Part shown: in pieces, positions 40,739-54,514 of the stretch
Numbering within the stretch: the stretch's first letter is position 1
Layout: each line of letters begins with the position of its first letter
Origin: Bacteroidales bacterium
GTDB taxonomy: Bacteria; Bacteroidota; Bacteroidia; Bacteroidales; GCA-2748055
DNA: 64,000 nt
Reading direction: 5' to 3'
Assembly (NCBI GenBank): GCA_016936975.1
Contig: JAFGWU010000004.1
Span: 1-64,000, forward strand
The notes under the pieces: generated by a model
Seen by the model: the letters and a program-made list of their open reading frames with translations, nothing else
Databases searched by the model: none
What the model was told of the DNA's origin: nothing
Translations under genes and position numbers: made by a program

Positions 40739-41614
40739 TTGGATGATTTTTTCAAATATGTGAGTCCGGGTCGGGAGGATGTCCGATGGGGATTATATAC
40801 CAATTGTGCCGGTAAAGCGGTGATCCCTCCGGGCAAGGTCTATCCCCCTGCCGAACATCCCTCAGGTTATTATTTCACCTTTAAAAAAGGAAGAATCCTC
40901 AATGAATACCAGTTAAATTATATAACCGACGGTGAGGGCATATATCAGAATCATGCCGGTACATACATTGTAAAACCGGGTTCACTGATGGTTACCAAAC
41001 CGGGTGACCTGCATCGCTACAGGCCCAGGAAGAACAAAGGCTGGATTGAACATTATGTGGGATTTTCAGGGCACATCGCCAACGAGTTGTTTTCCAAGCC
41101 TGCCCTCAGGAAAAAAAAAGCGGTTCTTGATATCGGAAACAGGGAGGAGATCCTGGGGACCTTTTATGAGATTTTTGAGACGGTTATTAATGAGAAGCCG
41201 GGATACCAGCAGGTGTCAGCCGGGTTGATCATGAAATTGCTGGGATATTTGGTATCTCTTGACAAGCAGAAGGATTTTGCAGGAAAACGGATCGAGAAGA
41301 TCATCCGGAATGCCTGCTATGAAGTGCGAAAAAATGTGGAGGGTAAGATGGATTTCAAGAGCTTTGCGGAAGAGAATCATGTCGGGTACTCTTATTTCCG
41401 GAAGATGTTTAAAATGTATACCGGTAATCCGCCTTCCCAGTATCATCTGGAGTTAAAGATGCTGCGCGCCAAGGAGATGTTACTGCATACCGATATGCTG
41501 GTGAAGGAGATCAGTGATGTGCTGGGTTTTGAGTCGGTATTTTATTTCAGTCGCCTGTTCAAGCAGAAGATGGGGATATCCCCTACGGAAATGAGAAAGA
41601 CGGTAAGAAATTAA
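40739..41614 (+). CDS. AraC-family transcriptional regulator, probably of the rhamnose genes
   Basis: The 291-residue protein has an N-terminal cupin sensor (residues 20-150; NYITDGEGIYQNHAGTYIVK) and a C-terminal pair of helix-turn-helix motifs (DFKSFAEENHVGYSYFRKMF and LVKEISDVLGFESVFYFSRL). It starts with TTG at 40739, supported by the AAGGGG ribosome site. It stands directly before rhaT and rhaA in the same direction, the usual place of RhaR-type activators in Bacteroidota, so L-rhamnose or rhamnulose is the likely inducer. Confidence 0.9.
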   Translation: MDDFFKYVSPGREDVRWGLYTNCAGKAVIPPGKVYPPAEHPSGYYFTFKKGRILNEYQLNYITDGEGIYQNHAGTYIVKPGSLMVTKPGDLHRYRPRKNKGWIEHYVGFSGHIANELFSKPALRKKKAVLDIGNREEILGTFYEIFETVINEKPGYQQVSAGLIMKLLGYLVSLDKQKDFAGKRIEKIIRNACYEVRKNVEGKMDFKSFAEENHVGYSYFRKMFKMYTGNPPSQYHLELKMLRAKEMLLHTDMLVKEISDVLGFESVFYFSRLFKQKMGISPTEMRKTVRN

Positions 41615-41747: not shown

Positions 41748-42776
41748 ATGAATGCATTTTCAGCTATTGGCCTCATAGCCATCGGGAGCATCGGGGCCGC
41801 CAGTTTCTATGTACCCCTAAACCGGGTTAAAAAGTGGGCCTGGGAGTCATACTGGATTGTTCAGGGGCTTGCGGCCTGGATCATAGCCCCCTGGGTTTTT
41901 GCGCTCTTTACCGTGCCCGATGGCAAGCTGCTGACCATTATTTCCGAAGCGCCGGCATCGTCCAAATGGCTCACCATGATGTTCGGGGCCATCTGGGGAG
42001 TGGGGGGGCTCACTTTCGGGTTGAGTATCCGCTACCTGGGAGTGGCCCTCGGGCAGAGTATCGCACTCGGATTCTGTGCTGCTTTCGGAACCCTTATTCC
42101 CCCTTTTATTGCCGGAGAAAATCTCTTTACGACCCGCGAGGGGCTCATTATCCTGATCGGGGTGGCGATATGCGTGGCGGGTATCGCCATCATCGGATAT
42201 GCCGGATCCCTCAAGAACAAAGGACTGAGTGAAGAGGAGCGGAAAGCGGCCGTGAAGGAGTTCGCACTGAAGAAGGGACTGATTATTGCCGTTTTTGCCG
42301 GCTTGATGAGTGCCGCCTTCAGCTTTGGTTACCAGGCAGGGATTCCCATCGACGAGGTCGCCCTGAAGCACGGCACCAATCCGTTGTTCCAGAGTAACCC
42401 GACCCTGATCTTTATTCTGATTGGCGGTTTTGTCACCAATTTCATTTACTGCATGTTTCTGAATATAAAGAACAAGACGATAAAGGATTATGTATCGGTA
42501 TCCCCGGGTATATTCTTTAACAACCTCTTTTTTACTTTCCTGGCCGGTTTTCTATGGTTCCTGCAGTTTCACTTCTATGGAATGGGGAGAAGCCAGCTGC
42601 CTGCCGGCATTGCCATATTCAGCTGGAGCATCCTGATGGCCCTGAATATTGCATTCAGCAATATCTGGGGCATAATGCTGAAAGAGTGGAAAGGGGTCAG
42701 CAAAAAAACGATGGTCGTACTCATTATCGGGATCATCGTTCTGATCCTCTCAACTTTTGTGGTGAGCATCAAATGA
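41748..42776 (+). CDS. rhaT: L-rhamnose/H+ symporter
   Basis: The 342-residue protein has about ten membrane segments in the drug/metabolite transporter fold and the RhaT-specific opening GLIAIGSIGAASFYVPLNRV with KKWAWESYWIVQGLAAWIIA. Other family blocks are GAIWGVGGLTFGLSIRYLGV and FWFLQF-like FLWFLQFHFYGMG. It imports L-rhamnose with protons. The rhamnose isomerase gene begins 44 bp downstream, and the AraC-type regulator is upstream. Confidence 0.95.
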   Translation: MNAFSAIGLIAIGSIGAASFYVPLNRVKKWAWESYWIVQGLAAWIIAPWVFALFTVPDGKLLTIISEAPASSKWLTMMFGAIWGVGGLTFGLSIRYLGVALGQSIALGFCAAFGTLIPPFIAGENLFTTREGLIILIGVAICVAGIAIIGYAGSLKNKGLSEEERKAAVKEFALKKGLIIAVFAGLMSAAFSFGYQAGIPIDEVALKHGTNPLFQSNPTLIFILIGGFVTNFIYCMFLNIKNKTIKDYVSVSPGIFFNNLFFTFLAGFLWFLQFHFYGMGRSQLPAGIAIFSWSILMALNIAFSNIWGIMLKEWKGVSKKTMVVLIIGIIVLILSTFVVSIK

Positions 42777-42820
42777 TTCCGGACAATCATAAATCGTATT
42801 ATAAACTTCAAACTCATATT

Positions 42821-44089
42821 ATGGAACAGAAAGAACAGATAAAAAATTTGTATGACCTGGCCAGGAAGGAGTATGCTTCCCTGGGTGTGGATACAGACAG
42901 GGCCCTTGATGCCATGAAAGAGGTGCAGATTTCACTGCATTGCTGGCAAACTGATGATGTAGGGGGATTCGAAACGCCCGATGCAGTGCTGGGAGGCGGA
43001 GGCATACAGGCTACGGGCAACTACCCGGGGAAAGCGAAAACCATTCAGCAGGTCAAGCAGGATATCGAAAAAGTGATGGAACTACTTCCGGGGAAACAGC
43101 GCTTTAATCTTCATGCTATTTACGGCGACTTTGGAGGCCAGTTTGTGGACCGCGACCAGATAGAGGTCAGGCATTTCCAGACCTGGATCGACTGGGCAAA
43201 AGAACAGGGAATCGGGTTGGATTTCAACTGCACCTGTTTCTCCCATCCGAAAGCCGAGGCCGGATTCACCCTCTCCAGTAAGGATGAGAAAATCAGAAAA
43301 TTCTGGGTGGAGCATACCCGTCGCTGCCGCAAGATTGGCGCTGAGATGGGCAAACAGCTGGGAACCCCGTGCGTGCACAATATCTGGGTACCCGACGGCT
43401 CGAAGGATATCCCTGTGGACCGTTTTACGCACAGGGCATTGCTCAAAAAATCACTGGATGAGATCTTTTCGGATCACTATCCCAAAACCCATCTCAAGGA
43501 TTCCGTGGAAAGCAAACTGTTTGGAATAGGATTGGAAGCGATGACGGTAGGATCGCATGACTTCTACCTGGGCTATGCCATCAGGAATGACAAGCTGATC
43601 TGTCTCGACAGCGGACATTTTCACCCTACTGAACAGGTGGGAGATAAGATTTCGGCCTGTCTCCAGTTTGTGGATGAACTGATGCTGCATGTGACACGCC
43701 CCATCCGTTGGGACAGTGATCACGTCGTGACCCTGAATGATGATGTCCTGTTGATTGCACAGGAGATCGTGAGGTCGAATGCCCTGAAAAGGGTCAATTT
43801 CGGGCTCGACTTTTTCGATGCCAGCATGAACCGCATCGGGGCCTATGTGATCGGTACCCGTGCCGCACAGCAGGCCATGCTGTTTGCACTGCTTGAGCCG
43901 ATTGAGTTGCTGAAGAAGTACGAAAATGAAGAGAAGAGCTTTGAGCGTCTTGCCGTCATGGAGCTGATGAAAACGAAACCGTTCGGTGCCGTCTGGAATT
44001 ACTACTGCCAGAAAGAGGGGGTACCGGTTGGTGAAGATTATATCAAAGAGATCCAGGCTTACGAGAAAAGCGAACTCAGCAAGCGTTAA
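42821..44089 (+). CDS. rhaA: L-rhamnose isomerase
   Basis: The start at 42821 (MEQKEQIKNLYDLARKEYAS) gives 422 residues, the normal size; a longer frame from 42554 overlaps rhaT and is not needed. Family motifs include KEVQISLHCWQTDDVGGFET, LNLHAIYGDFGGQ-like FNLHAIYGDFGGQFVDRDQI, the metal site around CLDSGHFHPTEQVGDKISA and RWDSDHVVTLNDDVLLI. It converts L-rhamnose to L-rhamnulose using a metal-hydride mechanism. The neighbours are rhaT and an aldolase gene on the same strand. Confidence 0.96.
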   Translation: MEQKEQIKNLYDLARKEYASLGVDTDRALDAMKEVQISLHCWQTDDVGGFETPDAVLGGGGIQATGNYPGKAKTIQQVKQDIEKVMELLPGKQRFNLHAIYGDFGGQFVDRDQIEVRHFQTWIDWAKEQGIGLDFNCTCFSHPKAEAGFTLSSKDEKIRKFWVEHTRRCRKIGAEMGKQLGTPCVHNIWVPDGSKDIPVDRFTHRALLKKSLDEIFSDHYPKTHLKDSVESKLFGIGLEAMTVGSHDFYLGYAIRNDKLICLDSGHFHPTEQVGDKISACLQFVDELMLHVTRPIRWDSDHVVTLNDDVLLIAQEIVRSNALKRVNFGLDFFDASMNRIGAYVIGTRAAQQAMLFALLEPIELLKKYENEEKSFERLAVMELMKTKPFGAVWNYYCQKEGVPVGEDYIKEIQAYEKSELSKR

Positions 44090-44137: not shown

Positions 44138-45262
44138 ATGGATAAGGATACGGAGTCCATTCAGGAACTGGTTGCTATCTCCAGGTTTTACGGTGCCGAT
44201 CCCGATTATGTGATTGCCGGGGGCGGGAATACTTCGTTTAAGAACGACACCCGCCTCTGGATCAAAGCCAGCGGCATAGCGCTGGCTACCATTGCAGAGG
44301 ATGGATTCGTTTGTATGTCTCGAACCCTTTTAAACCGGATCGGGGAGAAGCAGTACAGTCGCGATCCCGTTAAAAGGGAGGCAGAGGTCAAGCAGGCTCT
44401 CTCAATGGCGGTAATCACCCCGAAAGAGCTTCGTCCTTCCGTGGAGACCTCCCTGCACAACATCCTGGATTTTGCGTATGTGGTGCATACCCATCCGACC
44501 CTTGTGAACGGAATGCTCTGCTCTCTGAAGGCCGCAGAGACCGTTTCGGAACTGTTCGGGGAGGATGCATTGTATGTGGAATATACCGATCCGGGTTATA
44601 CCCTGTTCAGAAAGGTCAGCGAACAGGTTCAACGCTATACGGAGATGCATGGAAAGCCCCCGGGGATGATCTTCCTTCAGAACCACGGACTGTTTGTGGG
44701 GGGAAACAGCATTGAAGAGGTCAAAAAGACCTACAGGACTATCCGGGATGCGATCCGGGGTGGTTTATCCGCACCGGAACCTCCCGGAGATTTTCAAGAG
44801 GTCCATTCGGAAGCACTCGATGCGGTGAGGGATTTCTTCTCCGGAAAGAACCTCGTGGCCAGGGAGTACGGGGGAGCGCTGATCTCCCGTTTCACGATGG
44901 ACCGGAGCAGTTACGATAAGGTGAAAAGACCCTTTACGCCGGATATCATCGTGTACTGCAAATCGGATTACCTTTTTATCGCTAAGGGAACCGATCCCCA
45001 TACGATTTCCCGGCATATCGAACGGTTCCGGTCCGATCATGGCTACTTTCCCAGGATCATCCTCAGGGAGGGAGGCGGGATGATCTGCTGCGATGCAAAC
45101 GGCAAGGCCGTGGAAACGGTAAGGGATGTGTTCCTGGATATGATGAAGATCAGCCTGCTGTCGGAAAACTTCGGCGGGCCCCACTTCATGACAGAGGATC
45201 AGATTGCCTTCATCGATAACTGGGAGGTGGAAAATTACAGGAGAAAAATAGCAAATCAGTAA
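44138..45262 (+). CDS. Class II aldolase, probable rhamnulose-1-phosphate aldolase
   Basis: The 374-residue protein has the class II aldolase core with intact zinc ligands: Glu in RPSVETSLHNI, both His of VVHTHPTLVNG and His of FLQNHGLFVGG. The opening VIAGGGNTSFKNDTRLWIKA resembles the aldolase half of bifunctional rhamnulose-1-phosphate aldolase/lactaldehyde dehydrogenase proteins (RhaD with a C-terminal SDR). Here the SDR half is absent; a C-terminal region of about 150 residues is present instead. It should split L-rhamnulose 1-phosphate to DHAP and L-lactaldehyde. It is 17 bp before the kinase gene. Confidence 0.82.
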   Translation: MDKDTESIQELVAISRFYGADPDYVIAGGGNTSFKNDTRLWIKASGIALATIAEDGFVCMSRTLLNRIGEKQYSRDPVKREAEVKQALSMAVITPKELRPSVETSLHNILDFAYVVHTHPTLVNGMLCSLKAAETVSELFGEDALYVEYTDPGYTLFRKVSEQVQRYTEMHGKPPGMIFLQNHGLFVGGNSIEEVKKTYRTIRDAIRGGLSAPEPPGDFQEVHSEALDAVRDFFSGKNLVAREYGGALISRFTMDRSSYDKVKRPFTPDIIVYCKSDYLFIAKGTDPHTISRHIERFRSDHGYFPRIILREGGGMICCDANGKAVETVRDVFLDMMKISLLSENFGGPHFMTEDQIAFIDNWEVENYRRKIANQ

Positions 45263-45279
45263 CATTCAAAACCGGAACC

Positions 45280-46650
45280 ATGAAAAAAGAGGTGATTCTT
45301 ATTTTTGATATTGGAAAAACGAATAAAAAGCTGCTCCTCTTCGATATGACCTTCAGGGTGCTTCACCAGGAAGAAACCCGGTTCGATGAGGTTACCGATG
45401 ATGACGGATTTGCCTGTGATGACGGGGACCGGCTCGAGCGATGGATTGATGACAGCCTGCAGGTGTACCTGGAACATCCTGCATATGATGTAATGTCCAT
45501 CAATTTCACCACCTATGGAGCAACCCTCGTGTATGTTAATGATGAAGGGAAGCGAATCACACCCATCTACAATTACCTGAAGCCGATGCCCGGAGGTGTG
45601 CTGGAAGGGTTTTATGAACGATACGGGGGGATTGATGAATTCAGCAGGCGGACCGCATCTCCCGCCATGGGCATGCTCAACTCGGGACTACAGGCCCTCT
45701 GGCTCAAAAGAAAGAAGCCGGAGACCTTCAGAAAGGTGTCCCATATCATGCATTTACCGCAATACCTCTCCTATCGCCTCACAGGGTTCGTGTCCAGCGA
45801 ACATACCTCGATTGGCTGTCATACGGCTTTGTGGGACTTCGACCGGATGCGATATCACCCATGGGTCGGGGAGGAGTCAGTTCATCTGCCCGAACCGATT
45901 GACGTGTCTTCCACCTTCCCGGTGAAGATTGGCGGCAAAACCATCAGGGCCGGAATCGGGATACACGACAGCTCGGCCTCGCTGGCGCCCTATATCATGA
46001 ACAGCAGGGAACCCTTTATCCTGCTTTCCACAGGAACCTGGTGCATCAGCATGAACCCGTTTAACCATACTCCCCTGACGGCGGAGCAACTGAAACAGGA
46101 TTGTCTCTGCTACATGAGCGTCAGCATGAAACCTGTGAAGTCTTCAAGGGTATTTCTCGGGCATATTCATGATGTGAATGTGAAAGTCCTGGCGGATTAT
46201 TTTAAGGTTGGGGAGGATGATTACAAAAAAGTGAAACCCGACCCGGATCTTTTGCAGCGTCTGACAGAGCAGCACCATGGACAATCAATGTTTTTCCCGG
46301 AAGGTGTGCCGGAATCGTACCTGAACAGGGGTATTGACCTGAAGAAATTCGCATCATTCGGGGAAGCCTATCATCAGCTGATGATGGATCTGACAAAACT
46401 GGTTATTACAGCCATCGAATTAATTATCCCGGAGAACGACTCCACCGGCTGCATTTATATCACGGGGGGCTTTGCCCGCAACGAAATTTTCACCCGTTTG
46501 CTTGCCTCGGCCTTCACGAAGAAGCGGGTTTTTACTTCCGAGGTGGATAACGCCACATCCCTTGGTGCTGCGATGGTCGTTGCCGGTGAGCGCCCGAAAG
46601 GGACCGCATTCTCATTTGATCTCGGATTGAAACCGGTTGTTCCGTTTTGA
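45280..46650 (+). CDS. FGGY-family carbohydrate kinase, divergent type
   Basis: The 456-residue protein has the ribonuclease-H-like ATPase fold of FGGY kinases: N-terminal phosphate loop IFDIGKTNKKLLLFDM, LLSTGTWCISMNPF, and the C-terminal GCIYITGGFARNEIFTRLLA. It lacks the [12 protein letters not shown] motif of standard RhaB. Such divergent kinases neighbour class II aldolases in many genomes. By position it should phosphorylate L-rhamnulose at O1. The true substrate cannot be fixed because a RhaB-type kinase is encoded at 52053-53537 in the fucose operon. Confidence 0.82.
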   Translation: MKKEVILIFDIGKTNKKLLLFDMTFRVLHQEETRFDEVTDDDGFACDDGDRLERWIDDSLQVYLEHPAYDVMSINFTTYGATLVYVNDEGKRITPIYNYLKPMPGGVLEGFYERYGGIDEFSRRTASPAMGMLNSGLQALWLKRKKPETFRKVSHIMHLPQYLSYRLTGFVSSEHTSIGCHTALWDFDRMRYHPWVGEESVHLPEPIDVSSTFPVKIGGKTIRAGIGIHDSSASLAPYIMNSREPFILLSTGTWCISMNPFNHTPLTAEQLKQDCLCYMSVSMKPVKSSRVFLGHIHDVNVKVLADYFKVGEDDYKKVKPDPDLLQRLTEQHHGQSMFFPEGVPESYLNRGIDLKKFASFGEAYHQLMMDLTKLVITAIELIIPENDSTGCIYITGGFARNEIFTRLLASAFTKKRVFTSEVDNATSLGAAMVVAGERPKGTAFSFDLGLKPVVPF

Positions 46651-46708: not shown

Positions 46709-48004
46709 ATGGACAAAATAGATCCCATTCTCCAGCATCCCCGCGACCAGATCACCGCCATCATTAAACGGATTTATCATGCCGGGATGACCACCACTTC
46801 AGGAGGCAATATTTCCATAATCGATAACGAAGGAAACATCTGGGTCACACCCTCGGCTATTGATAAGGGCTCCCTGCAGAGAAAGGATATCATGTGCGTC
46901 AGGAAGGATGGAACGATTGTCGGACATCACAAACCCTCTTCTGAATTCCCGTTTCATAAGGCTGTTTATGAAGTCCGTCCCGACATCAGGGCGGTCATTC
47001 ATGCACATCCTCCGGCACTGGTCTCTTTCAGTATTGTGAGGCAGATTCCGAATACCAATATTATCCCGCAGGCCCGCCATGTATGCGGACCCATCGGTTA
47101 TGCCGAGTATGCCCTTCCCGGGGGGGAGGAGCTGGGTAAAAAAATTGCCCGTCAGTTCGGTGAAGGATTCAATGCCGTGATCATGGAAAATCACGGGGTG
47201 GTTGTCGGGGGAACCGACCTTAAGGATGCCTATGTGAGGTTTGAGACCCTTGAATTCTCGGCCAGAACCATTATCGGGGCAAAAACAGTCGGTGAGCCGC
47301 GTTACCTGGCCGATGAACAGATTGAAGAGTTTGACCGGCAGGTTCCGGAAGACCTTCCGGAGATGAAAGAGGTGATGCACGATCCCGGGGAGTTATCCAT
47401 CAGAAGGAATATTGCCCTCCTGGTTAGACGGGCCTGCGACCAGGGATTGATGATCAGCTCCTACGGAAACATGTCGGTACGGTGGCGGGAGAATGATTTT
47501 CTGATTACCCCGCGTAATGTACCCCGCTGGGAGATGGACCTTGAAGATATCATACAGATCCGGGGGGGCATGCGGGAACCCGGCAAATTTCCGAGCCGAT
47601 CGATCCGTATCCATGAAAAAATTTATAGCCGGCATCCAGACGTGAATTCGATTATCATGACCCAGTCTCCCAACGTGATGGCTTTTGGAGTGGCCCATGC
47701 CAGGCTGGATGTAAGGACCATTCCCGAGAGCTGGATTTTCCTCCAGGATATCCGGTTTGCAAAATTCGGTGAACAGTTCACGGATAATCCGGCGATTCCC
47801 TCCATGATCTCAAAGAATTCACCGGCAGTCATTGTGGAAAACGATGCGATCATTGTAACCGGGGACAAGTTGCTGCAGACCTTCGACCGCTTGGAGGTGG
47901 CGGAGTTCAGTGCCAAATCGCTAATAATGGGCCATCCCCTCGGGGACATGGTTCCCATAAACAAACAGCAGATCGAAGATCTCAGAAAGAAGTTTTTGGG
48001 GTAA
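46709..48004 (+). CDS. Tandem class II aldolase/adducin protein with a degenerate second domain
   Basis: The 431-residue protein holds two class II aldolase domains in tandem (residues 5-215 and 225-420). The first has all zinc ligands: Glu in KPSSEFPFHKAVY, two His in VIHAHPPALVSF and His in IMENHGVVVGG. In the aligned second domain these are replaced: FPSRSIRIHEKIY (Glu to Ser), IIMTQSPNVMAF (His to Met and His to Gln) and IVENDAIIVTG (His to Asp). The second domain should therefore be non-catalytic, perhaps structural or ligand sensing. The active domain may serve fuculose- or rhamnulose-1-phosphate. It closes the rhamnose operon. Confidence 0.85.
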   Translation: MDKIDPILQHPRDQITAIIKRIYHAGMTTTSGGNISIIDNEGNIWVTPSAIDKGSLQRKDIMCVRKDGTIVGHHKPSSEFPFHKAVYEVRPDIRAVIHAHPPALVSFSIVRQIPNTNIIPQARHVCGPIGYAEYALPGGEELGKKIARQFGEGFNAVIMENHGVVVGGTDLKDAYVRFETLEFSARTIIGAKTVGEPRYLADEQIEEFDRQVPEDLPEMKEVMHDPGELSIRRNIALLVRRACDQGLMISSYGNMSVRWRENDFLITPRNVPRWEMDLEDIIQIRGGMREPGKFPSRSIRIHEKIYSRHPDVNSIIMTQSPNVMAFGVAHARLDVRTIPESWIFLQDIRFAKFGEQFTDNPAIPSMISKNSPAVIVENDAIIVTGDKLLQTFDRLEVAEFSAKSLIMGHPLGDMVPINKQQIEDLRKKFLG

Positions 48005-50281: not shown

Positions 50282-52066
50282 TCAGCCGTAAAGGGGTCCG
50301 TAGGCTGCACATGCCCTGTAATCCGAGCCCTCTTTATCCGACCCGAATGCGGACCAGGCACTCGGGCGGAAGAGGTGATCCTCAGGTACGTTGTGCATGC
50401 AGACCGGGATCCGGAGCATGGAGGCCAGGGATATCAGCTCGGCCCCGATATGTCCGTATGTGAATGCCCCATGGTTGGCTCCCCAGCCGGCCATAACAGA
50501 GTAGACATCCACGAAGTTCCCTTTTCCGGTAAGGTTTGGAACGAACCATGTGGTTGGCCATGAGGGATCGGTTCTCTCTGTCAGCACCTTATGAACATCG
50601 TCGGGCAGGTCGATGGTAACCCCTTCGGCAATCTGAAGAACGGGTCCCAGTCCCTTGACGATGTTGATCCTGCTGAGGGTAACCGGCATGCCCCCCCTGG
50701 TATTGAAGGTGGATGAAAAACCACCGCCCCTGAAATATCCCCTGACACCTGCTCCCCAGGTGGTGTGGTCCAGGCATTTCTGTGCCTCCCCTTCCGTTAT
50801 CTCATACCAGGGCTTCATGGCCGGTTTGCCGTGAATGCTCTGCTGTCCGGTTCCATCCAGGGCAGAGGCTCCGGAATTGATAAGGTGGATAAAACCGTTT
50901 CCTGCCGGTCCTTCTAATGTATGGCCGGTGACCCTTTTAACCGCTTTGGGGCTCCAGTAGGTTCTCACATCGCTGAATACCTGTGCGGCACCGGTCAGCA
51001 GATGGCCGAACAGCATGACCACCCCGTTCAGGCTGTCATTTTCAGTGGCGAGCATATAGGGTTGGCGGATTCCGTTCCAATCGAATGAGGAACAGAGGAT
51101 GGCTTCCATGAAGTCCCCGTTCGGGAAATGGTCGGTCCATTGCCGTTGTCCCTGGAATCCGGCTGCCAGCGCATTATGACCGAGGGCCTCCTCCTCATAA
51201 CCCATTGCTTTCAGAACGGGATTTCCCACCATCAGGTCACGGCCGATCAAAGCCATTTTTGCCACAAATTCCCAGACCTCTTTTTTCTTCCCGGGTGATT
51301 GCTGCAGTTTCGGGGGATTATAATCCTTGCCTTCCCTGCAATTTTTTTGGATCCAGGTCAGGGCGCGTTTCAACTCATCCCGGTCGTAGATCCCCTCATC
51401 GATGCGCCGCGTAAACTCAGACATATCCACGTATTCACAGCGCATTCCAAGGTATTCCTCGAAGAAATCGGCATTGACGATGGAACCTGCAATTCCCATG
51501 GAAACACTGCCCATCGACAGGTAGGATTTGCCTTTCATGTGCGCCACGGCCAGTCCGGCCCTGGCAAATCGCACTATTTTTTCCTTCACATCGCCGGGGA
51601 TCTTCCGTGAATCGGAATCCTGAACATCTTTTCCGTAGATGCCGAATGCCGGTAATCCTTTCTGATTATGGCCGGCCAGTGCTGCGGCAAGATATACGGC
51701 CCCTGGCCGCTCGGTTCCGTTGAAACCCCAGATGGCTTTTGGAATGGACGGATTCATATCAATGGTTTCACTGCCGTAACACCAGCAGGGGGTGACCGTC
51801 AGACTGATCCCAACACCTTCCCGTTCAAATTTGATCGCTGAAGCAGCCGCTTCTGCCACGCCTCCGATACAGCTATCGGCAATGACGCACTCCACCGGGG
51901 TTCCATCCGGGTGCTTCAGGGTGGACTCGATCAATTGTTTGGCCATATCGGCCATCTGCATGGTTTGTGCCTCGAGGGATTCCCGTACACCTCCCATCCT
52001 TCCGTCGATGGCAGGACGGATCCCTATTTTCGGATTCTCTCCGATCAATCGGTTACTCTTTTCCAT
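50282..52066 (-). CDS. fucI: L-fucose isomerase
   Basis: The 594-residue protein matches FucI in length and motifs: [20 protein letters not shown] at the N-terminus, [31 protein letters not shown], the metal-binding [20 protein letters not shown] (Asp) and the late [17 protein letters not shown]. It converts L-fucose to L-fuculose with manganese and may also take D-arabinose. Its start overlaps the end of the kinase gene by 14 bp, so they are translationally coupled. It is the last gene of the GntR-kinase-fucI unit. Confidence 0.97.
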
Positions 52067-53537
52067 TGTGATTCAGTGTTATTAAATGTTTGAATTGTTC
52101 GTAGCGGAGCTCCATATCCGGATGCACGCTTTGCGGGGCATATTCTTTGATATCAAAAGAACGTTTTACAATCTGCCGGATCTCATACCTGTCTTCCACG
52201 ATTCCCAATGAGAGAGCCTGCACCAGGATGTTTCCTATTGCTGCACCCTCCACAGGTCCGGATATGACAGGGCGGGAAGATACATCTGCCACGTTCTGGT
52301 TCAGGTAATCCGACTGGCTGCCTCCTCCAATCAGATGAAGAACCCCGATATGCTTCCCGGTGAGTTCCTCAAGCAGTTCAATATGATACCTGAAGGAGAA
52401 ACAGAGGCTGTCATAGGCGCATTTAATGTAACCGCTTAAATTTCGGGGGAGATTCTGTCCCGTTTCCCGGAAGTAGGCATCAAAAGCCGCCTTCATGTTT
52501 ACGGGATTGTAAAAGACCCCGCTGTCGGGATTGATAACCTGTGGAATGGATCCGGCCTCATCAGCTATCCGTTCAAGACCGGCATGCGAAAGGGTATCGG
52601 GCAGCTCTTTTTTCAGACCCTGGATGAGCCAGAGTCCGACAATATTCTTCAGAATGCGGAAGGTATTGTTAAATCCCCTCTCGTTGGTAAATCCCGCTTT
52701 AAGCGCCTCTTTTGTCAGGATCGGGGATTCCGATTCCACTCCCACGATACACCATGTTCCCGATGAGATGTAGGCGGCGCTCCTTTCTCCGGCAGGAAGG
52801 GCAAGAACGGCGGAGGCTGTGTCGTGACCGCAAACCTGGATCACCTGCATGGAAGCGTTATGAACGGACGGATGGATGATCTCTCCGAGAATGGTTCCGG
52901 GAAAATCGGGTTGCCCGAATATTTCGGGTGCCAATCCGAGATGTTCCAGGATTTTCGGATCCCAGCTTGTGGAGCGGGCACTCAGAAGCTGGGAGGTGGA
53001 AGCGATGGTCAGCTCATTTCTCATCAGTCCGGTTAACAGGTAGTTCATGAACCCCGGGGTGAACAGGATGCGGTTTGTATTCTTCAGGGCTTCGGTTTCT
53101 TTGATCGAAAGCAGCTGGTAAAGGGTGTTGAACTGGTAGAAGTTGATGCCGGTCCGTTCAAAGGTTTCCATTTTCGACATCATCCCCTGCCACTTCCGGT
53201 CCATCCCCAGGGTCCGGGCATCCCGGTAAGAGACCGGTGTTTCGATCAGCTCACCGTTTTCATCCAGCATGGCAAAATCCACTCCCCATGAATCGAATCC
53301 GATGGAGGAGAGGGAATGGCCATGTTCATCCACAATCCGGTTGATTCCCCGAACCACCTCCCGGGTGATGCGGTCGAAGTCCCATCTTTCGTGGCCCTCT
53401 TTTTCAAACACCCTGTTTTCAAAGCGGTGGTATTCATGATAACGCATCGTTCCTTCCCGCAGTGTCCCAAGCATGATGCGGATACTGGAAGCCCCCATAT
53501 CAACGGCGATACATTTGAATTCACCTTTTGAATTCAT
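52053..53537 (-). CDS. RhaB-family FGGY kinase, probable L-fuculokinase by context
   Basis: The protein has the FGGY kinase architecture with RhaB-type signatures: [17 protein letters not shown] (phosphate loop), [45 protein letters not shown] and [17 protein letters not shown]. By sequence it is a rhamnulokinase-type enzyme; RhaB enzymes also accept fuculose to some degree. Placed between a GntR regulator and fucI, it probably phosphorylates L-fuculose at O1. ATG at 53537 is used; a TTG at 53564 is in frame. No aldolase gene accompanies it. Confidence 0.88.
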
Positions 53538-53651
53538 TTCGGTGTGCTGTTTGTTTGATGCCAAATCGAATCACAATATAACATAATTTGCCAAAACCTG
53601 ACAGCAGAAACCGGACATTCATTGATGCGGAATCCATACTGGCGGGGATGT

Positions 53652-54365
53652 TTAAAACCTTCCGGTGAGACTGTAATTTTCGGTGTTACAGTAAACCTGG
53701 CTGTAAAAGCAGAAACCGACCCGGTTGGTCTCCAGCTTTCTGTCGAGGCGCAGTATGGGGTGGTTTTCGCTGACCCGGAAATGACGCCGGATTTTTTGAT
53801 CGGCCTTGATGGCCAGTATCTTCTGCTCCCCTCCCGTAACCTGGAGCTGGTAATGTTTCCTGAGAATTTCGAAAAGCGACCGGTTTTCAAAGTTCCGGGA
53901 GGTGAATCGCGGAAGGTTCATATTGGGAATCATGGTGATATCGTAGAACACCGGGACATTGTTGATCAGTCTCAATCGCTCCATGTGGATGTACCCGACA
54001 CTCTTTTCCTCCCCGGAGATATCAAATCCGAAGGCCCGGTCCCATTTTCTGATATGCGGTTTCACAATGATATGGGTCGTAAGGTTTTCATCTCCGATGG
54101 CCGAAGTAGTGCCGCTCAGGGAGAGGATCCCGATGCCTTTCGGTGTTCCCCTGACAATGCTTCCTTTCCCCTGCTGGCGCATGATGAAACCGTCATTCAC
54201 CAGCATGTCAAGCGCTTTTCTCACGGTGGGACGGGTAAGATGATGCACCGCGCACAACTCATTCTCCGAAGGCAGGAGCTCCCCGTTTTTATAGATACCA
54301 TCCTCGACCAGTTTTCTCAACTGTTCGTAAAGTTGACGGTATTGCGGTGCTTTTTTGATGGCCAT
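53652..54365 (-). CDS. GntR-family regulator, HutC/UTRA subfamily
   Basis: The start at 54365 (MAIKKAPQYRQLYEQLRKLV) is chosen because it opens directly on the winged helix; a frame to 54428 adds an unlikely tail. The 237-residue protein has an N-terminal helix-turn-helix (LPSENELCAVHHLTRPTVRK) and a C-terminal UTRA ligand-binding domain with HMERLRLINNVPVFYDITMI. UTRA proteins usually respond to sugar phosphates or related small molecules. It is divergent from the E2-E1-SorE-fucosidase operon, and a HutC-type palindrome lies at that operon's promoter, so it probably represses it. Confidence 0.92.
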   Translation of the reverse strand: MAIKKAPQYRQLYEQLRKLVEDGIYKNGELLPSENELCAVHHLTRPTVRKALDMLVNDGFIMRQQGKGSIVRGTPKGIGILSLSGTTSAIGDENLTTHIIVKPHIRKWDRAFGFDISGEEKSVGYIHMERLRLINNVPVFYDITMIPNMNLPRFTSRNFENRSLFEILRKHYQLQVTGGEQKILAIKADQKIRRHFRVSENHPILRLDRKLETNRVGFCFYSQVYCNTENYSLTGRF

Positions 54366-54394
54366 GGATTCCCCGGTAAATTGACAGCAACAGA

Positions 54395-54410
54395 ATTTAC
54401 AGTTGTAAAT
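54395..54410. promoter_or_regulatory. Palindrome ATTTAC-AGTT-GTAAAT upstream of the GntR gene
   Basis: Perfect 6-bp arms around a 4-bp centre, 30 bp upstream of the GntR start on its leader side. It does not fit the GTnTAnAC pattern of HutC regulators, so it could be a site for a second regulator or a weak autoregulatory site. Confidence 0.45.
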
Positions 54411-54514
54411 ATAGGTATAGAATGACATATTGCAAAATAAAATTCTTTATATAGCTTTAAATTGTTTAAATACAACATTATATAATTAAATCTTATAGCA
54501 GGATACAATTTTTT

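Follow-up and report, generated by a model that had tools for sequence, protein, structure and literature searches.

A tandem class II aldolase of Bacteroidota whose second domain has lost its metal site and may complete the active site of the first

The stretch of DNA analysed here (the window) comprises 64,000 nucleotides of a Bacteroidales contig and encodes two class II aldolase domains joined in one protein. The first domain carries the metal-site residues of the family, and the second carries different residues at all four positions. The locus raises the question of what a fused aldolase domain that has lost its metal site does for its intact partner, and which reaction the pair carries out.

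Loss of the metal site in the second domain

The reading frame is unbroken over 431 amino acids, with an ATG at 46709 and a stop codon that ends at 48004. The features discussed below are as follows.

46709–48004, + strand: tandem class II aldolase gene; intact ORF, two PF00596 domains, AlphaFold2 (AF2) model
46748–47269, + strand: domain 1 (D1), intact aldolase domain (PF00596), with E79, H98, H100, and H162 in 99/99 homologues
46943–46945, + strand: codon of D1 Glu79, equivalent of FucA Glu73 (catalytic base and metal-site Glu), 99/99 homologues
47000–47008, + strand: D1 metal ligands His98-Ala-His100, 99/99 homologues
47192–47194, + strand: D1 metal ligand His162, 99/99 homologues
47408–47920, + strand: domain 2 (D2), pseudo-aldolase without a metal site (PF00596; D1/D2 profile match; purifying selection)
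47600–47602, + strand: D2 Ser298, in place of Glu (HHalign; A/S/T/G in homologues)
47657–47665, + strand: D2 Met317-Thr-Gln319, in place of His-x-His (HHalign; homologue comparison)
47714–47749, + strand: putative D2 donor loop RTIPESWIFLQD, residues 336–347, equivalent of the FucA Tyr113' segment (conservation windows; alignment to 6btd)
47843–47845, + strand: D2 Asp379, in place of His (HHalign; Asp in 94/99)

PF00596 matches the protein twice, at 163.9–164.3 bits for D1 and 80.3–80.4 bits for D2, both above the curated cut-off of 22.2. Alignment of the D1 and D2 family profiles with HHalign (E about 1e-29 to 1e-33) gave the register of the two domains with no hand-fitting and pairs Glu79 with Ser298, His98 with Met317, His100 with Gln319, and His162 with Asp379. 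These are the same four substitutions (Glu to Ser, His to Met, His to Gln, and His to Asp) that the first-pass annotation had read by eye. Site counts were made on 99 full-length or near-full-length homologues. The Glu/His/His/His set is complete in D1 of every one of them and in D2 of none. Position 298 of D2 is Ala, Ser, Thr, or Gly, with rarer small or hydrophobic residues and never Glu, and position 317 is Leu, Met, Ile, and others, with His in 3 of the 99. Position 319 is Gln in 97/99 and position 379 is Asp in 94/99, so that Gln319 and Asp379 are themselves conserved among the replaced positions and 298 and 317 drift. Since the D2 state is common to all 99 homologues, a sequencing error or an accident of one genome is rejected as its cause.

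The median dN/dS is 0.064 for D1 and 0.078 for D2 (45 pairs of moderately diverged homologues). D2 is under strong purifying selection, and with a dN/dS of about 0.08 it is not the decaying half of a pseudogene. Structure prediction of the tandem, the check proposed at first pass, was carried out with AlphaFold2 on a 43-row alignment and modelled both domains and their mutual packing well (pLDDT 93.1 and pTM 0.91 across both domains); the whole-chain pTM suggests that the packing of D1 against D2 is fixed. The top folds found by Foldseek with this model are FucA-type enzymes. D2 is thus a pseudoenzyme domain in the sense that its fold is kept under selection and its catalytic residues are lost. 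The earlier description of an intact copy joined to a fused pseudo-enzyme domain is well supported by the homologue counts, HHalign, the AF2 model, and dN/dS, and a search for homologues with two complete sites, which would have contradicted it, found none among those examined.

The homologue search matched at least 539 loci, and the nearest named homologues are nearly all from Bacteroidota. D1 and D2 fall on separate branches of the domain tree, and the same four divergent loci (L119, L120, L017, and L022) lie near the base of each. With its long branches the tree places no single-domain lineage as the donor of D2; it fits one old fusion, with the ligands lost before the radiation. None of the viral contigs checked encodes a relative. 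Homologues with 47–52% identity are carried on large Persicobacter plasmids (CP012863.1:50088-51344 and NZ_AP025293.1:468230-469501). One further tandem, at 32% identity (L180, G095:C137), has its D1 in two frames, through a frameshift or an assembly error, with the metal ligands kept. The window itself is Bacteroidota-like in that it encodes a protein with a type IX secretion signal (CHU_C).

Reciprocal conservation and the role of the second domain

The single-domain enzyme FucA removes the C3 proton with Glu73, and each of its active sites is completed by a loop of the adjacent subunit that brings in Tyr113', which acts on the C4 hydroxyl (PMC11841055). The tandem homologues hardly vary in the D2 loop that corresponds to the Tyr113' segment (RTIPES[W/Y]I; T337-I-P-E-S-W/Y-I), whereas the D1 counterpart is variable, with at least four common residues at position 124. 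Mean entropy over the segment is close to 0.2 for D2 and exceeds 1 for D1. Although D2 is less conserved than D1 overall, none of the other 176 aligned 11-residue windows shows as large an excess of D2 conservation as this segment, which ranks first. In the profile alignment to structure 6btd, Ser341 and Trp/Tyr342 of D2 stand opposite a Ser-Tyr pair; residue 342 is Tyr in the most divergent tandems and Trp in the main clade. The metal site is therefore invariant in one domain and the loop near-invariant in the other, which suggests that D2 probably completes the active site of D1.

Divergent tandems bear on the same point. In one of them (L188, genome G515) D1 is intact and the IPES motif of D2 is kept, in a second (L182, genome G514) the D1 metal site is partly broken and the D2 loop is absent, and in a third (L179, genome G057) the D1 metal site is fully gone and the D2 loop is also lost. 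Judged by sequence, the D1 metal site and the D2 loop appear to decay together in one related family, although the cases are few and may represent a single lineage. The tandem without any metal site (L179:5889-7139, - strand, in G057) adjoins a purA-like gene.

The probable reading, and the one that we prefer, is that D2, as a fused pseudo-subunit, completes the D1 site within a two-chain pseudo-tetramer, and that the reaction is most likely the cleavage of L-rhamnulose-1-phosphate. D1 would be the catalytic half, with one metal bound by Glu79, His98, His100, and His162 and with the substrate phosphate bound through the kept motifs G33-N34, T47-P-S, and S77-S78. The D2 site would be unable to bind a metal, and D2 would instead play the part of the neighbouring subunit in FucA, its IPES-Trp/Tyr loop reaching into the D1 site. 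If D2 takes this role, two chains would close into a ring of pseudo-fourfold symmetry, D1-D2-D1'-D2', that has two working sites rather than four, each composed of a D1 metal and a D2 loop. The tandem would then cleave L-rhamnulose-1-phosphate to DHAP and L-lactaldehyde, either as a second aldolase or as the sole one where RhaE is absent. We infer all three elements, the ring assembly, the loop donation, and the substrate; the placement of the D2 loop in the D1 site rests on homology to FucA. Two observations count against the loop model: Trp342 of the main clade cannot serve as an acid/base like Tyr113' of FucA, and Gln319, Asn378, and Asp379 of the dead pocket are conserved and are given no role by it.

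Other roles for D2 can be weighed against the same pattern of conservation. D2 could be a purely structural holder of the tetramer, as in adducin, with its loop conserved for packing and not for the D1 site. Aldolase domains of adducin form tetramers without catalytic activity (PMC12599920), the D2 profile matches adducin chains (8iah), and the D1-D2 packing is fixed in the AF2 model. However, the excess conservation of D2 sits on the very segment that bears the neighbour's catalytic Tyr113' in FucA, and the loop is lost together with the D1 metal site, so that we regard a structural role by itself as unlikely. The role in subunit assembly suggested at first pass thus points in the right direction but is too weak, as the conservation pattern indicates that D2 also supplies an inter-subunit loop to D1.

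The conserved pocket residues could alternatively reflect binding of a ligand. D2 may be a regulatory domain in which an effector, bound in the remodelled pocket (Q319, N378, D379, S296-R297, and H302), controls D1; these residues are conserved despite the loss of the metal, and an anion could be bound by Arg297, which stands at the position of the phosphate-site Ser. Against this, the D1 loop that would cover the D2 pocket is variable and pocket positions 298 and 317 drift, which makes such a domain improbable. The first-pass suggestion of ligand sensing found no positive support beyond the conserved Gln319, Asn378, and Asp379. It would be similarly surprising if the pocket (Gln319, Asn378-Asp379, and Arg297) bound a pathway metabolite and gated D1 via the donated loop; were this the case, the tandem would be an aldolase under feedback control, its former active site having turned into an effector site. 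D2 could instead have a working metal site of another kind, for which the conserved D347, E340, H302, and D379 would in principle be able to serve as ligands, or it could catalyse a second reaction. Positions 298 and 317 drift, no conserved cluster of His, Asp, or Glu is found at the old site, and the strongest conservation in D2 forms a loop and no new pocket, leaving this explanation very improbable.

Rhamnose context and the likely substrate

The tandem gene follows a set of genes for L-rhamnose breakdown in the order AraC-RhaT-RhaA-RhaE-kinase-tandem.

40739–41614, + strand: AraC-family regulator at the head of the rha locus (PF12833, PF02311)
41748–42776, + strand: RhaT-type L-rhamnose transporter (PF06379, 228.9 bits)
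42554–44089, + strand: L-rhamnose isomerase RhaA, in the operon of the tandem (TIGR01748, 609.8 bits, above cut-off)
44138–45262, + strand: stand-alone RhaE-type aldolase, the aldolase half of PRK08324/RhaEW (NF006196, 120 bits over residues 3–368, below cut-off)
45280–46650, + strand: FGGY kinase, probable rhamnulokinase, directly upstream of the tandem (PF21546, PF00370)

The called start of RhaA (42554) overlaps the RhaT gene; translation probably begins at an internal Met, as the family match covers the protein only from residue 95 on.

The tandem sits mostly inside rhamnose-breakdown genes in hundreds of Bacteroidota. A rhamnose-pathway isomerase lies near it in 50 of 80 named loci (RhaA in 23 and RhaI in 27), with none within about 8 kb in the other 30, which counts against the rhamnose reading, and a kinase is found upstream in 49/80. 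RhaEW lies near the tandem in 27 of these loci and RhaE on its own in 9, and genes for lactaldehyde reductase, aldehyde dehydrogenase, and lactate dehydrogenase often occur nearby. RhaE or RhaEW is also present in 19 of 20 named tandem genomes examined, and RhaEW is common across the phylum in genomes that lack the tandem. Elsewhere, RhaEW has been verified as a rhamnulose-1-phosphate aldolase/lactaldehyde dehydrogenase (PMC3870299). The tandem would thus be unneeded for this step in most hosts, which appear to have two aldolases for it, and a simple replacement of RhaE by the tandem is rejected as a general rule. Why many rhamnose-eating Bacteroidota should have two aldolases for seemingly one step is a question that the tandem raises.

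A pointer to the substrate comes from a 100% complete genome (G055) in which the operon reads AraC-RhaT-RhaA-kinase-tandem and which has a single further class II aldolase, AraD, leaving the tandem as the sole aldolase candidate beside a rhamnose operon. FucI is absent from this genome. A second genome (G004, 92% completeness) resembles it, and a further complete genome (G443) has the kinase-tandem pair and no RhaE. On the strength of the G055 operon, L-rhamnulose-1-phosphate aldolase is the likeliest function and our best single guess. A divergent tandem in another genome (L177:7717-14730, in G341) lies near RhaA, a RhaB-type kinase, and a single-domain class II aldolase, at a locus that also holds an apparent microcompartment shell protein, recognized by eye.

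The tandem could alternatively be an L-fuculose-1-phosphate aldolase that lies in a rhamnose operon as deoxy-sugar pathways share enzymes, a rival for the substrate only. The genome of the window has FucI and a kinase (50282–53564) and no single-domain FucA, FucI occurs in 15/20 and 11/19 tandem genomes, and the best folds of the tandem model are FucA-type. FucI is missing, however, from at least 13 tandem genomes, among them the complete G055, G443, and G341, which weakens a FucA role as a general rule; three genomes have another class II aldolase of 265–284 amino acids adjoining FucI, and D1 scores far under the FucA cut-offs. We consider fuculose-1-phosphate a doubtful substrate. The cluster at 50282–54428 of the window is a divergent L-fucose cluster (FucI, RhaB-type kinase, and GntR).

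Comparison with known systems

Class II aldolases, dead aldolase domains as in adducin, and pseudoenzyme partners are already known. A literature search of open-licence papers, with most subscription journals outside its reach, found no description of a covalent tandem or half-dead class II aldolase. The fused pseudo-subunit appears to retain only the partner-serving half of an active site formed at an interface, and the tandem is a clean natural experiment in how homo-oligomeric enzymes turn asymmetric.

The FucA-type enzymes (the coli enzyme 1fua, 4c24, and DrdA 6btd) share with the tandem the fold, the D1 metal ligands and Glu base, the phosphate-binding motifs, and, on our reading, an active site completed at an interface. 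FucA has one domain per subunit and assembles into a homotetramer whose four sites are identical, whereas the tandem fuses two unlike domains of which one binds metal. RhaE/RhaEW (PRK08324, TIGR02632) shares the pathway context and the PF00596 domain and accompanies the tandem in most genomes; unlike the tandem, it has one aldolase domain, either by itself or joined to a dehydrogenase, and a TIGR02632 match to the tandem is not among the 25 families listed in the NCBIfam scan. Classical RhaD (TIGR02624, 1gt7) has the same class II chemistry and, by our assignment, the same reaction, but is a single domain of 274 amino acids that extends further at the N terminus. Against TIGR02624, D1 reaches 36.9 bits, below the cut-off of 400.95. 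The whole tandem protein likewise stays under family cut-offs (96.9 bits against 400 and 168.6 against 264), and a further family profile in the scan scores 62.1 bits against 389.

The adducin aldolase domain (8iah; 3ocr tetramer) resembles D2 in that a class II fold is kept as a non-catalytic tetramer partner; adducin, however, is a eukaryotic cytoskeletal protein in which all subunits are dead and no tandem fusion exists. In the trypanosome AdoMetDC/prozyme pair a dead paralogue is required by the active one (PMC6221367). The likeness to the tandem would lie in this need of an active copy for a dead partner, although AdoMetDC and prozyme have an unrelated fold and are separate chains, unlike the fused domains of the tandem.
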